Assembly (NCBI GenBank): GCA_019459455.1
Contig: JAIBEX010000020.1
Location: forward strand, 1 to 64,000
Length of the DNA stretch: 64,000 bases
Reading direction: 5' to 3'
From: Weeksellaceae bacterium
GTDB lineage: Bacteria > Bacteroidota > Bacteroidia > Flavobacteriales > Weeksellaceae
The translations under genes and the position numbers were made by a program. The notes beneath the pieces were generated by a model. That model searched no databases. It was not told the DNA's origin and saw only the letters and a program-made list of their open reading frames with translations. How positions within the stretch are numbered: the stretch's first letter is position 1; each line of letters begins with the position of its first letter. Positions 19,648-24,885 of the stretch are shown here, in pieces.

Positions 19648-19705
19648 CGCATTTTTTTTATCGAACAATAAAGTTTTTTGTTAAAGACTTATTAATTTAA
19701 TCACG

Positions 19706-21190
19706 TCATTCCTGAATACCATAGACCAAATCCTTTTTTATCATAAGGATAGATTTCTTCATATTCTCATTGAAAATTTCTTTTTCCAGACGAAGCGGCG
19801 GTGCCTGTCGGACTTCGCAGTTAGGAATGCTGCAGAATTCGCAGGTCACACCTACGTTTACCGTTTTAATGCGGTCACTTTTCGCAAAATTTATCTTTTT
19901 AAGGGAATTTGAATTAAGTAAAATCCCCAGACAGTAACTTCTGTTGGTACCGTCTGAAAACGGATTTTTCTGTGAGGTTGAAAATACAAGATACGTAAGT
20001 CCGCTGTCCTTGTAGTGGGAGATCTGGGCATCGGTAACGGTTTCGTTTTCCTTCAGATTCATCAGATTTTTTACCGCAATCCATCGTCTGCAATAGTGTT
20101 CATTCGTCGCATTGGCATGCGGTGCCTGCTGTTGGTTTAAATGGAGTTCCTTTAAAATTTCGAGTTTGTCTGAATTTTTCTTCTTGGTAAAGCAGAGATA
20201 GAATAAATCCTTTATTCCCAGTTCCTGAGGCAGGATGTTGGTCAGCCGGTAATAAAAGGTTTCCGGTGAATTGGTGAATTCGGCGATAAGGTTTTCAAAA
20301 TTCTGAGGTTCCCATTCATCAGCTTTAAAAAATTGGGTGATTTTCTCCGTTAGAATTCCCTTATGAATCAGCAAACACCCCGCAAAATAAGAAGCGTAAT
20401 AATTGTTGAGCAGTTCCTCGAAACTCGTAAAATCCAGCCAGGAGTAGGTGTTAGGTCTTGGGTGGAGTTTTAGAACGTTATAGCCGATCTCTTTGGCAAA
20501 TATGAAAGTTTTCTGGTCTTCGTCCAGGAGTTCATTTAGAAGGAGGAGCCGTTGTTCCGGGATAAAAAGTGACCGCAGTTTGCCGGTAGCACCGTACGTT
20601 TCAAAATCAAGCTGGCGGATTTCGTACATAAACTGTTCGCTCAGAATTTTTTCCAAGTCTGCCGATCCTGGTTTTAAGGGGAGCACCTGTTCGCGCGCAT
20701 ATTCCGAAGCTTTTTCCTCTATTGCGGGGAAATAATTGTCATACAGTTCCTGAAAACTGCGGACTACCGCAAAATAGAACCGTTCCTTGCTCAGGTTGTA
20801 GTTTTTGGATATCTCAATAAGGGTATTCACGAAAGCAGTCACCTTTTTCGGTGCGTCACTGATGATGCTGATGAGGTTGTTTTTGCTGATCCCGAAAAGT
20901 TCCAGCGGAATTTCCTTAAAGAAATCGGACTGTATGATTTCAACAATCGGGGAGAGGCTTTTGTCAAGCTTCGTTGAGACCAGATCGTTGTACGGGCAGT
21001 TCAGCGCGGCTGCAAGTTGGGCGATTTTGTCGTGTTTCGGATATTTTTTGCCGTTTTCAATCTCGTTGAGGTAGGACTTGGAAAGGCCGGTCAGATTCGA
21101 AAGATCCTGAAGCGAAAGATTTTTCTTTTGCCGGTACTGTTTCATTTTCAGTCCGAAAACGGTTCTGATGAATTCGCCGTCATGCATCAT
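19706..21190 (-). CDS. RamB/ScfR-like XRE transcriptional regulator, divergent from the glyoxylate shunt genes
   Basis: 494 aa. The helix-turn-helix lies at about residues 15-70 (KKNLSLQDLSNLTGLSKSYLNEIENGKKYP). The middle is an ImmA/IrrE-type domain whose HExxH is degenerate: AKEIGYN at 232-238, so both metal-binding His are lost and protease activity is unlikely. The C-terminus has CEFCSIPNCEVRQAPP (450-465), like the CxxCxxxxC...PP element of DUF2083 in RamB/ScfR regulators. RamB controls aceA and aceB in Corynebacterium and other ScfR proteins respond to short acyl-CoAs. Its position divergent from aceB-aceA therefore suggests the same job here, sensing acetyl- or propionyl-CoA; this is inference. 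Confidence 0.85.
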   Translation of the reverse strand: MMHDGEFIRTVFGLKMKQYRQKKNLSLQDLSNLTGLSKSYLNEIENGKKYPKHDKIAQLAAALNCPYNDLVSTKLDKSLSPIVEIIQSDFFKEIPLELFGISKNNLISIISDAPKKVTAFVNTLIEISKNYNLSKERFYFAVVRSFQELYDNYFPAIEEKASEYAREQVLPLKPGSADLEKILSEQFMYEIRQLDFETYGATGKLRSLFIPEQRLLLLNELLDEDQKTFIFAKEIGYNVLKLHPRPNTYSWLDFTSFEELLNNYYASYFAGCLLIHKGILTEKITQFFKADEWEPQNFENLIAEFTNSPETFYYRLTNILPQELGIKDLFYLCFTKKKNSDKLEILKELHLNQQQAPHANATNEHYCRRWIAVKNLMNLKENETVTDAQISHYKDSGLTYLVFSTSQKNPFSDGTNRSYCLGILLNSNSLKKINFAKSDRIKTVNVGVTCEFCSIPNCEVRQAPPLRLEKEIFNENMKKSILMIKKDLVYGIQE

Positions 21191-21246
21191 TTATGCTGAA
21201 TTAAAATTTATAATCTTTCTAAATAGTTTCGGAAAACCGATGGATG

Positions 21247-21254
21247 CAAAGTTA
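21247..21254 (-). promoter_or_regulatory. -7 element for the RamB-like regulator (TAACTTTG)
   Basis: CAAAGTTA on the plus strand reads TAACTTTG on the minus strand, 56 nt before the regulator start codon at 21190. Confidence 0.5.
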
Positions 21255-21271
21255 TAGAAAATTTAACAGTT

Positions 21272-21282
21272 GTTCGCATAAT
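21272..21282. promoter_or_regulatory. Operator-like half site near the regulator promoter
   Basis: GTTCGCATAAT resembles one arm (GTTCGCTAAT) of the nearby palindrome with one inserted base. It lies about 18 bp upstream of the regulator -7 element, a place suited to autoregulation. Confidence 0.4.
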
Positions 21283-21296
21283 TGTTTTCTAATTTA

Positions 21297-21316
21297 ATTA
21301 GCGAACGTTCGCTAAT
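21297..21316. promoter_or_regulatory. Perfect 20-bp palindrome, candidate operator for aceB-aceA
   Basis: ATTAGCGAAC followed directly by its exact reverse complement GTTCGCTAAT. It covers the expected -33 region of the aceB promoter (-7 at 21334), so a bound protein would block RNA polymerase. No T-run follows, so it is not a terminator. The divergent RamB-like regulator is the obvious candidate ligand. Confidence 0.7.
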
Positions 21317-21333
21317 AGTGAAAAAATTTATTT

Positions 21334-21341
21334 TAGCTTTG
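21334..21341 (+). promoter_or_regulatory. -7 element for aceB-aceA (TAGCTTTG)
   Basis: TAGCTTTG fits TAnnTTTG and lies 28 nt before the aceB ATG, just downstream of the palindrome. Confidence 0.6.
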
Positions 21342-21369
21342 TCCATGAATTCATTAAATATCAGGCAGC

Positions 21370-22947
21370 ATGGAAACATCAATTCAGTTTAAGATTCTTG
21401 CAACAGAGCAATACAGGGATATCTTTTTGCCGGAACTCACCGACTTTTTATCCGAACTACATTCGCGGTTTGATGAAGAAAGAAAAAATTTATTGAATGC
21501 CAGGAAAATGGTCCATGTCGAATTTGATCATCACCAATTGCCTGTGTTTTTGCCCGAAACCGAAGGAATACGAACCGGTAATTGGGTATGCAGTCCGCTT
21601 CCCGATGATTTGTTGGATAGAAGGGTAGAGATTACCGGTCCCGTGGAACGCAAGATGATTATCAACGCGCTGAATTCAGGAGCCTCCACTTTTATGGCCG
21701 ATTTCGAGGACAGCAATTCGCCCACCTGGGAAAACTGCATGGAAGGACAGAGAAATCTTACGGAGGCAGTAAGCCGGACTATCGGCTTTGAAAATGAGAG
21801 TGGCAAAAAATATGAATTGTGCGAGAAAACTGCAGTTCTTTTGGTTCGTCCGAGAGGTTTGCATCTGGAAGAAACGAATATTGAGATTGAGGGACAGCCC
21901 GCATCCGGTTCGCTGGTTGATTTTGGAATTTATTTTTTCCGGAATGCAAAGAAACTTATAGAAAACGGAAGCGGACCTTATTTTTATCTTCCCAAACTGG
22001 AACATTATAAGGAAGCCCGCTGGTGGAATGAGGTCTTTAAATTTTCTCAGGATTATTTGAAGATTCCGCAAGGGACTATTAAAGCTACGGTGCTTATCGA
22101 AACCATTACGGCGGCTTTTCAGCTCGATGAAATTTTATATGAACTGAAAGAGCACAGTGCCGGACTGAATTGTGGACGGTGGGATTATATCTTTTCCTAC
22201 ATCAAGAAATTCAGAAATCTCCCGGAATTTCTTGTTCCCGACAGAGATCAGGTGACCATGACCTCACCATTTATGAGCGCGTACTCAAAACGGGTCATTC
22301 AGGTCTGCCATAAAAGAAATGTACATGCCATGGGCGGAATGGCTGCGCAGATACCTGTAAAAAATAATGAAGAGGAAAACAAAACGGCTTATGGAAAAGT
22401 TCGTGCCGATAAAGAACGCGAGGTAAAAAACGGCCACGACGGAACCTGGGTCGCCCATCCCGGGTTGGTGCCGGTCGCAAAAAAAATATTTGACGAACTG
22501 ATGCCTGGGAAAAACCAAATCCACAATAAGTTTGAGGAGTACAACATTTCTGAGGGGGACTTGCTTGAGATTCCGAAAGGAACCATCACTGAAAACGGGG
22601 TCCGGAAAAACATCAATGTGGGGATTCTTTATATCGAGTCCTGGCTCATGGGTGTGGGCGCTGCAGCGCTTTACAATCTGATGGAAGATGCAGCAACTGC
22701 CGAAATCTCCCGGACTCAGGTTTGGCAATGGCTTAAAAATGAAGCCAGGTTGGAGGATGGCAGGACCTTATTACCGGGTTTGGTTTTGAGATGGCAGGAA
22801 GAAGAACTCACAAAGATTAAAGAATACGTTGGTGAAGAGCGCTATGAGAACGGAAAATTCAAACTGGCGGCCGAAATTTTCGACGAACTGGTTTTGAACG
22901 ATCATTTTGAAGAATTCCTGACCCTGAAAGCCTATTCATTTATATAA
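21370..22947 (+). CDS. aceB: Malate synthase A
   Basis: 525 aa, the size of malate synthase A. Condenses glyoxylate with acetyl-CoA to malate in the glyoxylate shunt. [44 protein letters not shown] and [12 protein letters not shown] are conserved family blocks, and [19 protein letters not shown] near the C-terminus is typical. The intergenic gap to aceA is 20 bp, so they form an operon. Expression is likely controlled at the upstream palindrome, allowing growth on acetate or fatty acids. Confidence 0.98.
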
Positions 22948-22967
22948 AATCATCAAACCCAAATACA

Positions 22968-24254
22968 ATGAAAAATCAAGAACAAATCCAGAATCTGGAA
23001 AAAGACTGGCTGGAAAACCCTAGATGGGATGGTATCAAGAGACCTTATTCCGCCGTAGAAGTATTAAAATTGAGAGGTTCTTACCAACTCGATTACACCA
23101 TCGCAAAACTGATGTCCGAAAAATTATGGCAACAGCTTACCACTCAGGATTTCGTGGCCGGATTAGGTGCCCTCACCGGAAACCAGGCAGTGCAGGAAGT
23201 TGATGCCGGTCTCGAAGCCATTTATCTGTCCGGATGGCAGGTGGCGGCAGATGCCAACCTTTCCGGAGAAATGTACCCGGATCAGAGTCTTTATCCAGCG
23301 AATTCTGTCCCAAGTGTGGTGAAAAGGATTAACAGTGCCTTGCTGAGGGCGGACCAAATTCAGTCAGTGAATGGTGTAGAAGAATCAGAAAAGAAAGAAT
23401 ACCTCGTTCCAATTGTGGCAGATGCTGAAGCGGGTTTTGGCGGGAACCTGAATGCCTACGAACTCATGAAGCAGATGATTGAAGCGGGTGCGGCCGGAGT
23501 CCATTTCGAAGACCAGCTTTCTTCCGCGAAAAAGTGCGGCCACTTGGGTGGAAAAGTTTTAGTTCCCACCCAGGAAGCCATCAACAAACTCATTGCAGCG
23601 CGTCTTGCAGCCGATGTGTGCGGAGTTCCTGCCATAGTGGTGGCAAGAACCGATGCCGATGCGGCCGATTTACTGACCTCAGACATCGATGCACGCGACC
23701 AAAAATTTGTGACAGGAAAAAGAACCACCGAAGGTTTTTTTGAAGTGAATAATGGGGTAGACCAAGGCATCGACCGGGGTCTTTCATACGCGCCATACGC
23801 CGATCTGATCTGGATGGAAACCTCCAATCCTGACCTGGATTATGCCAGGAAATTTGCAGAAGGCATCCACGCAAAATTCCCCGGAAAAATGTTGGCGTAC
23901 AACTGTTCCCCATCCTTCAACTGGGCGGCGAAACTGTCGGTTCCGGAGATGGAAACCTTTCGAGAAGAACTGGCGAAAATGGGTTATAAATTCCAGTTCA
24001 TCACGCTTGCCGGCTTCCATGCCTTAAATACCTCGATGTTTGAACTGGCTTTGGCTTACAAAAGACGAGGGATGGCCGGGTACAGCGAACTTCAGGAAAG
24101 GGAATTTGCTTTGCAGAAAGAAGGATTCCGTGCGGTGAAACACCAGAATTTTGTAGGAACTTCCTATTTTGATGCACTGCAAACCGTCATCACTTCCGGG
24201 AATTCCTCTGTAGTGGCGATGAAAGATTCCACCGAGGCCGCACAGTTCCATTAA
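22968..24254 (+). CDS. aceA: Isocitrate lyase
   Basis: 428 aa. Cleaves isocitrate to succinate and glyoxylate, the first glyoxylate-shunt step. The active-site signature [18 protein letters not shown] (Cys near residue 188) is intact. [29 protein letters not shown] and YNCSPSFNW are further catalytic blocks. Second gene of the aceB-aceA operon and followed by a strong terminator. Confidence 0.99.
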
Positions 24255-24292
24255 GAGAATCCCAGAAAAAGTAATTAAATTATTGTTGTTAG

Positions 24293-24326
24293 AAGATCCT
24301 TCCATTTTCAGTGGAGGGATCTTTTT
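24293..24326 (+). terminator. Rho-independent terminator after aceA
   Basis: AAGATCCTTCCA (24293-24304) pairs with TGGAGGGATCTT (24312-24323) with one wobble, followed by a T-run. Confidence 0.88.
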
Positions 24327-24426
24327 GGTCGTGTCTTTTCCATTGCTGTCTTGCCACGAAAAGACGAAATTAGTTTTCAGGAAAATCGCCCAATCACCAA
24401 ATCATTACATTATCACCTCAAAATCT

Positions 24427-24434
24427 TATCTTTG
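24427..24434 (+). promoter_or_regulatory. -7 element, near-leaderless, for queD
   Basis: TATCTTTG, then CCAA, then ATG at 24439. Confidence 0.6.
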
Positions 24435-24438
24435 CCAA

Positions 24439-24885
24439 ATGATTAGAATCACCAAAATCTTCACTTTTGAAACAGCCCATGTCCTCTACAATTACGACGG
24501 TAAATGCAAAAACATGCACGGGCATTCATACAAACTGTTCGTGACCGTAAAGGGAAATCCAGTCAACGTTCTGGAAAACCCAAAGAACGGAATGGTTGTG
24601 GATTTTGGTGATATAAAGGACATCGTGAAATCAGAGATCATCGATGTTTGGGACCATGCGGTATTGCTTAATGCTGGTTCGCCCCACAGAGATTTGGGCG
24701 AAGACCTGGAACAGAAAGGCCACAAGGTGATTTTCTGTAATTTCCAGCCCACCTGCGAAAACATGCTCTATGAAATTGCTGAAAAGGTAAAAGGCAAACT
24801 TCCGGAGGATGTTTCGCTGGCCTATCTCAAACTTCACGAAACCGAAAACTCTTACGGTGAGTGGTTTGCGGAGGAGAACCTTTAA
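24439..24885 (+). CDS. queD: 6-pyruvoyl tetrahydropterin synthase / QueD family protein
   Basis: 148 aa. The family makes 6-carboxytetrahydropterin for queuosine synthesis. Zinc-ligand histidines are in FETAHVLYNYDGKCKNMHGHSYK (HGHSY), the active-site Cys is in the same segment, DHAVLL and the C-terminal LHETENSYGEW complete the pattern. An upstream in-frame extension to 24283 exists but runs through the aceA terminator; the promoter 4 nt before 24439 fixes the start. The product could instead serve another pterin route, since no other queuosine genes are nearby. Confidence 0.9.
   Translation: MIRITKIFTFETAHVLYNYDGKCKNMHGHSYKLFVTVKGNPVNVLENPKNGMVVDFGDIKDIVKSEIIDVWDHAVLLNAGSPHRDLGEDLEQKGHKVIFCNFQPTCENMLYEIAEKVKGKLPEDVSLAYLKLHETENSYGEWFAEENL

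Follow-up and report, generated by a model that had tools for sequence, protein, structure and literature searches.

In Actinomycetota and Proteobacteria, acetate and propionate genes are under the control of ScfR/IsaR family members. The closest described systems are the prototype MtPrpR, the RamB proteins of C. glutamicum and M. tuberculosis, and the RamB of Paracoccus denitrificans. The portions of PMC6765138 drawn on here describe MtPrpR as lacking HExxH, with cluster ligands that include Cys363 and 447-C-X2-C-X4-C-455, and describe RamB as a repressor of icl1 in M. tuberculosis. In C. glutamicum, according to excerpts of PMC4448153, RamB represses aceA and aceB and its sites precede about 30 genes. 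Partial accounts also state that MtRamB carries a histidine (His143) where PrpR has Phe155, and that the F155H form of PrpR binds succinyl-CoA. In P. denitrificans, RamB activates the shunt under a section heading that calls it activator and repressor, and its operator, read off the oligonucleotide bs_wt, consists of two TGACAA-type boxes with an 18-bp spacer (sections of PMC10370305).

We analyzed a stretch of 64,000 nucleotides from a Weeksellaceae bacterium (the window), in which the gene order is upp-comF-[regulator]<>[aceB-aceA]-queD-lpxH, with the neighbors named from a reading of their open reading frames (Table 1). A first-pass annotation of this DNA had described a regulator divergent from aceB-aceA, and this arrangement holds; both genes score above the curated cut-offs for malate synthase A and isocitrate lyase. 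The regulator is the sole match to the ScfRs family in the 2.59-Mb genome.

Table 1. Coordinates of the features discussed in the text (positions in the window).
Feature	Position	Strand	Basis or remark
ScfR/IsaR-type transcriptional regulator, 494 aa	19706..21190	-	Pfam, invariant cysteines, AF2 model, fold match
Regulator parts: XRE HTH; IrrE-like and GAF-like acyl-CoA part; C-terminal C-X2-C-X4-C	19706..21190	-	
Putative regulator -7 element TAACTTTG	21247..21254	-	Sequence; spacing in relatives
Decayed second operator AACAGTTGTTCGCA	21265..21278		Score 9/12; centre 35 bp from main operator
Main operator, perfect 20-bp palindrome ATTAGCGAACGTTCGCTAAT	21297..21316		Sequence and conservation
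Conserved core of the operator (14-mer) AGCGAACGTTCGCT	21300-21313		General form AGCGAA-N2-TTCGCT
Putative aceB -7 element TAGCTTTG	21334..21341	+	Sequence; distance to operator in relatives
aceB, malate synthase A	21370..22947	+	TIGR01344, 767.3 bits (cut-off 594.5)
aceA, isocitrate lyase	22968..24254	+	PRK15063, 743.3 bits (cut-off 562)

The regulator shows the domain set of the ScfR/IsaR family: an N-terminal XRE HTH (residues ~12-73, PF12844/PF01381), an IrrE-like domain (residues 202-317, PF06114) and a C-terminal ScfRs domain (PF09856). PF12844, PF06114 and PF09856 each exceeded their cut-offs, the last just barely (25.4 bits vs 24). The degenerate HExxH and the CxxC(x4)C...APP tail read in the first pass are both present, the former as AKEIGYN at residues 232-238 and the latter as C450-X2-C453-X4-C458 followed by EVRQAPP. 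These three cysteines and C367 are invariant in alignments of 23 and 34 relatives, whose protein stretches begin at a codon estimated by tblastn that may differ from the true start. A protease function was considered and dropped because HExxH is absent.

Plain phmmer searches of the regulator against solved structures matched HTH domains only. A profile of the regulator gave a weak match to PrpR (E 0.16, or E 0.021 without the HTH), and the C-terminal profile alone gave no PrpR match, so the likeness to PrpR was settled by fold search. For the AF2 model (mean pLDDT 82.2, pTM 0.74), the best structural match was MtPrpR (6cz6; Z 25.4, rmsd 4.1, 299 residues aligned), and Foldseek against MtPrpR gave E 1.2e-11 and a TM score of 0.63 by target length. 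The second-best full-domain match was PprI/IrrE (Z 13.7). The Deinococcus protein shares the scaffold but has the HExxH protease motif that is absent in the regulator, and it is not known to have a ScfRs C-terminal part. The regulator and MtPrpR, as far as the latter is described in the sections used, both lack HExxH and both carry a C-X2-C-X4-C motif with an upstream cysteine, 84 residues before the motif in MtPrpR and 83 in the regulator; C367 was equated with MtPrpR Cys363 by this spacing and without a residue alignment. Domains, four cysteines, missing HExxH and fold all agree with an ScfR/PrpR type; the first pass had likened the protein to RamB/ScfR. By sequence and modeled fold, the regulator represents a Bacteroidota branch among the acyl-CoA regulators that depend on a [4Fe4S] cluster, and its C-terminal part would hold this cluster and the acyl-CoA. 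A search of a plasmid collection for relatives of the regulator returned two matches in Persicobacter (Bacteroidota) and one partial match in Arthrobacter.

Residues of the CoA pocket could be compared in part. R144, R206 and F229, invariant in 29 rows, align with R159, K217 and F240 of PrpR, in an alignment that excludes H319, R338, K347, R348 and K410, which could not be aligned. F140 lies opposite PrpR F155 when placed by counting four residues back from R144, which would give both proteins a phenylalanine at the acyl end of the pocket. Counted in the same way from the aligned R159/R144, the acyl-end residue among the 29 rows is Leu in 17, Phe in 11 and Met in one, and at this putative position the regulator has no RamB-type histidine. 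The name RamB, used in the first pass, therefore does not suit the family: the regulator reaches 37.4 bits against the NCBIfam RamB equivalog NF038139, for which the cut-off is 700, and its acyl end would carry Phe, Leu or Met, not His. Replacement of the RamB histidine by Phe or Leu predicts a ligand other than succinyl-CoA; for Phe140, CoA, acetyl-CoA or propionyl-CoA would be expected instead.

Between the regulator and aceB, ATTAGCGAAC/GTTCGCTAAT form a perfect inverted repeat. Its inner 18-mer occurs at a single place in the window, and likewise in the whole genome, at up to three mismatches, and any match was found in 2 of 100 shuffles. With one mismatch allowed, a genome search with AGCGAANNTTCGCT returned one exact site and three one-mismatch sites (one in the reversed control), and we take these three as chance; GCGAACGTTCGC returned two further sites (two in the reversed control).

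To place the repeat in its family, we took a census of 197 Weeksellaceae genomes, after dropping three loci (L124-L126) from repeats of genomes already counted. The regulator is present in 118 of them and aceA in 115, and 114 of these 115 also have the regulator. The core AGCGAACGTTCGCT occurs in exactly one copy in each of 104 genomes (reversed control, one genome). Reading all 118 regulator loci, we found the exact core upstream of the regulator in 104, which accounts for every core-bearing genome; therefore, none of the 79 regulator-less genomes contains it. Conservation of the palindrome upstream of aceB had been set beforehand as the refuting test of the first-pass proposal, and the outcome (104 of 118 vs 0 of 79) supports it. 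The remaining 14 loci have variants with one or two mismatches in the same place, eight of which differ in the two central bases only. In all, the operator arms are exact in 112 of the 118 loci, and six have one arm mismatch. Before an intact aceB (101 loci), the exact core ends 32-106 bp from the estimated start codon, and in 80 of the 101 at 52-57 bp. One locus (L077) has an insert of ~0.8 kb between regulator and operator, and the operator remains with aceB.

Some loci depart from this arrangement. In L102, L113 and L118, aceB is a remnant, the regulator and the exact operator are kept, and the genome has no aceA at E 1e-100; here the regulator may be in the course of being lost, or may serve another target. 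In one genome (L106), the regulator gene was matched in two pieces and is apparently broken, and the exact operator and aceBA remain (G179).

The regulator-aceBA block is a clean unit of en-bloc loss (or gain). In five relatives that lack the shunt, three of them from the genus of the window, comF and queD are directly adjacent, and exactly the whole block (window 19669-24439) is missing between them. Of 80 named relatives with the shunt, 52 have comF next to the module and 18 have queD within 4 kb of it. Regulator, lyase and palindrome site are all missing from three other species of the genus. A recent gain of the module was considered and dropped, as the comF/queD neighbors and the exact gap fit a loss as well or better.

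We extended the survey to 395 genomes of the class, of which 61 have the regulator and 47 have isocitrate lyase at the threshold used. Besides the window, the other 60 regulator-bearing genomes were inspected: in 46 the regulator is divergent from an adjacent aceB, in 13 it has no adjacent aceB, and in one (G565, L282) the locus ends at a contig end and was counted on neither side. The motif AGCGAA-N2-TTCGCT, with at most one mismatch in its 12 fixed positions, is present in 45 of the 46 regulator/aceB gaps, 38 of which have no mismatch; the remaining pair (L283, from G582) has no operator site. Among the 13 genomes whose regulator has no adjacent aceB, three have an exact upstream site (in G545, one of two copies), two have a one-mismatch site, and eight have no site upstream of the regulator with up to one arm mismatch. 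None of 11 aceB genes from regulator-less genomes carries the site. Ten of these 11 come from one family and are more distant (41-48% identity), so this control comes largely from one lineage; four stretches with aceA and without aceB (L271, L273, L274 and L276) were excluded from it. In family f44 (L262-L270, L293), aceBA occurs without the regulator and without the site. In one genome (G237), the regulator and aceBA are on different contigs (L243, L275) and aceB keeps the site, centered 66 bp upstream, which speaks for action in trans.

Open reading frames were listed for ten of the loci that lack aceB, and nine proteins from five of these were scanned. In three of the five, the regulator has a recognized neighbor together with an operator site: acetyl-CoA synthetase (acs) lies upstream on the same strand with an exact site between (L242), PEP carboxykinase and fructose bisphosphatase (pckA-fbp) are divergent with an exact site between (L248), and a divergent aconitase has a one-mismatch site (L250). 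The neighbor in L247 is a short-chain dehydrogenase, and L253, which has an exact site, showed no recognized neighbor in the protein scan. The site in L248 is the exact AGCGAACGTTCGCT, and the second regulator copy of the same genome (G545), in L247, has no site. In seven further loci (L244, L254, L256, L286, L287, L289 and L292), aceB has a like operator, and the isocitrate lyase encoded after it is only remotely similar to that of the window (29-32% identity), as if one lyase had been exchanged for another while the control stayed in place. L256 has an exact site behind aceB as well.

Bacteroidota promoters have a -33 element TTTG and a -7 element TAnnTTTG, ~19-20 bp apart. By this consensus, we take TAGCTTTG to be the aceB -7 element. 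In Weeksellaceae-type regions, TAnn(T/A)TTG follows the operator centre in 117 of 134 distinct regions, nearly always at 23-27 bp. It does so in 27 of 28 Flavobacteriaceae-type regions, at 28-29 bp, and in 33 of 36 regions from other Bacteroidia, mostly at 22-29 bp with one or two at 37. On the regulator side, 186 distinct gaps contain 130 occurrences of CAAAnnTA that end 49-53 bp ahead of the operator centre. If the promoter elements are assigned by the consensus, the operator centre would lie near -37 to -41, and the operator would cover or touch the aceB -33 element. The first pass had placed a perfect 20-bp palindrome over the -33 region of aceB as a control site for aceBA. The repeat is indeed perfect and conserved, it goes together with the regulator across genomes, and it overlaps the predicted -33 region.

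The related half site noted earlier upstream of the regulator's own promoter belongs to a half-decayed second operator, with one intact half, TTCGCA (21273-21278). Of 125 distinct upstream regions of the Weeksellaceae type, 81 have a second site that scores at least 10/12 and lies 35-36 bp upstream of the main operator (centre to centre), vs 2 of 125 shuffled ones. It probably overlaps the regulator's own promoter, near its -33. Regions outside the Weeksellaceae type have extra half sites at different places. Upstream, 14 of 30 Flavobacteriaceae-type regions carry a further AGCGAA (at -43/-42 for 11 of these 14 copies), as do 9 of 36 regions from other Bacteroidia (at -24 or -41). A further TTCGCT stands at +19/+20 in 13 of 35 regions from other Bacteroidia; the shuffles had none of these. 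Weeksellaceae-type regions were at about shuffle level for such extra half sites (1 of 118 and 1 of 93).

For column profiles, 222 sites (named and unnamed copies of one species may both be included) were reduced to 88 regions at <80% identity, and 70 of these were profiled, excluding regions without a divergent aceB or with <140 bases. The 70 comprise 31 Weeksellaceae-type regions (a label that throughout takes in one record titled Sphingobacterium, L172), 23 Flavobacteriaceae-type regions and 16 from other Bacteroidia. The operator arms are 91-100% conserved, vs mostly 30-75% for columns 45-80 bp upstream. The two central bases are free in the profile of other Bacteroidia, and among relatives the centres AT, AA, TT and TA all occur. 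Conservation extends to further columns, such as a T-run left of the operator in the Weeksellaceae profile. To the right, each column of a GTGAAA block (window 21318-21323; +12 to +17 relative to the operator centre) reaches 80-96% in Weeksellaceae, but the block is not conserved in the Flavobacteriaceae profile.

The half-site TTAGCGAA matches 7 of the 8 bases of the mycobacterial PrpR/RamB box TTTGC(A/G)AA, as given in partial descriptions of that system; 87 of 20,000 shuffled operators came as close, with the flanking TT chosen post hoc. By this match, the operator is probably a variant of the actinobacterial one, and the first-pass view that it is unlike it is not supported. The MtPrpR system, so far as described, differs in its methylcitrate target genes, in its phylum and in having two boxes 1 bp apart instead of one inverted repeat with a 2-bp spacing, and the two proteins are 18% identical in the structural alignment. 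The RamB proteins of C. glutamicum and M. tuberculosis resemble the regulator in their isocitrate lyase and malate synthase targets, which the regulator probably shares, in domain order and in a box that may be related. They differ in the equivalog score and the acyl-end residue given above and, in the excerpts on C. glutamicum, in having about 30 genes preceded by sites vs one exact site in the genome of the window. The P. denitrificans RamB shares the divergent order with malate synthase-isocitrate lyase and, like the regulator as we picture it, responds to CoA esters (parts of PMC10370305), but it differs in its paired boxes and in activating the shunt. The gap of the window contains no TGACAA/TTGTCA; among the 118 family gaps, 19 have one copy and none has two. 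The family is known, and on sequence grounds the branch is set apart by its failure against the RamB model, its likely acyl-end residue and an inverted-repeat operator without paired TGACAA boxes.

Sequence comparison and the structural model establish the domain make-up, the predicted fold, the cysteine set and a conserved, regulator-linked operator before aceB. We consider the regulator-operator pair almost certainly genuine. Together, regulator and palindrome very probably act as a genetic switch for growth on acetate or fatty acids. It is very unlikely that the palindrome is the site of another transcription factor while the neighboring XRE protein acts elsewhere. The eight of 13 class genomes in which a regulator away from aceB has no upstream site would fit such a factor, but the single exact copy is confined to 104 regulator-bearing genomes and missing from all 79 regulator-less ones, the site recurs where the regulator adjoins pckA-fbp, acs or aconitase, and none of the 11 regulator-less aceB genes carries it. 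That the palindrome arose by chance or acts at the RNA level (hairpin or terminator), with no operator function, is more improbable still. AT-rich gaps often contain short inverted repeats, but the arms are conserved across the class where most flanking columns are not, and the genome of the window has one copy. The hairpin/terminator version was dropped, because the palindrome lies upstream of both putative -7 elements and hence outside both predicted transcripts.

How the switch works is a question of repression or activation. We think it probable that the locus is a self-contained glyoxylate-shunt module in which the regulator controls aceBA through one operator, AGCGAA-N2-TTCGCT, and we favor repression as the likely main mode. 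The XRE domains would bind the palindrome and, without an acyl-CoA signal, the bound regulator would cover -33 and repress aceBA. Less certainly, it may also repress its own gene by way of the weaker second site. During growth on acetate or fatty acids, the regulator loaded with acyl-CoA would be released or would rearrange on the DNA. Three points favor repression. The expected -33 position is covered or touched by the operator. Within the class, the distance from operator to -7 varies between 22 and 29 bp, which amounts to much of a helical turn, where a class II activator would be expected to keep a fixed spacing. RamB is a repressor of the homologous genes in two Actinomycetota: aceA/aceB in Corynebacterium and icl1 in Mycobacterium (portions of PMC4448153 and PMC6765138). 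At 25-27 bp, moreover, the expected -33 would fall inside the operator. Alternatively, and with distinctly lower probability, the acyl-CoA-loaded regulator beside -33 could act as a class II activator that brings RNA polymerase to aceB, and repress only its own gene. Such activators bind close to where the operator centre lies (about -37 to -41), and no separate -33 TTG was seen in Weeksellaceae regions, as in activated promoters; both count against repression. In the Flavobacteriaceae-type regions (-7 at 28-29 bp in 27 of 28), a TTG stands just beside the palindrome, which puts the centre near -40. MtPrpR is an activator, and sections of PMC10370305 describe activation of the shunt by P. denitrificans RamB, whose gene is divergent in the same way. 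Of the 115 family genomes with aceA, just one has no regulator, as would be expected if activation were obligatory.

Among the matches listed from the open-access literature, we found neither an account of glyoxylate-shunt control in Bacteroidota nor a paper on this regulator branch; a 2015 classification of ScfR proteins may list Bacteroidota members. Searches with the operator motif gave only titles on CpG oligonucleotides, immunology and vaccines.

Beyond the aceBA genes of the window, the branch may, as a tentative broader reading, represent a class-wide acyl-CoA/iron-sulfur switch of Bacteroidota. With about one operator per genome and a PrpR-type pocket, such a switch would join the shunt to acyl-CoA supply and iron status, and in other lineages would have come to serve acs, pckA-fbp or aconitase after moving together with its operator. 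The class-wide operator makes it possible to test directly which acyl-CoA and which DNA are recognized by PrpR/RamB-like proteins in this phylum. It could serve as an annotation marker for many genomes, given that at least 577 stretches encode a relative of the regulator, and operator and regulator together may provide a compact, possibly acetate-responsive part for flavobacterial genetics.
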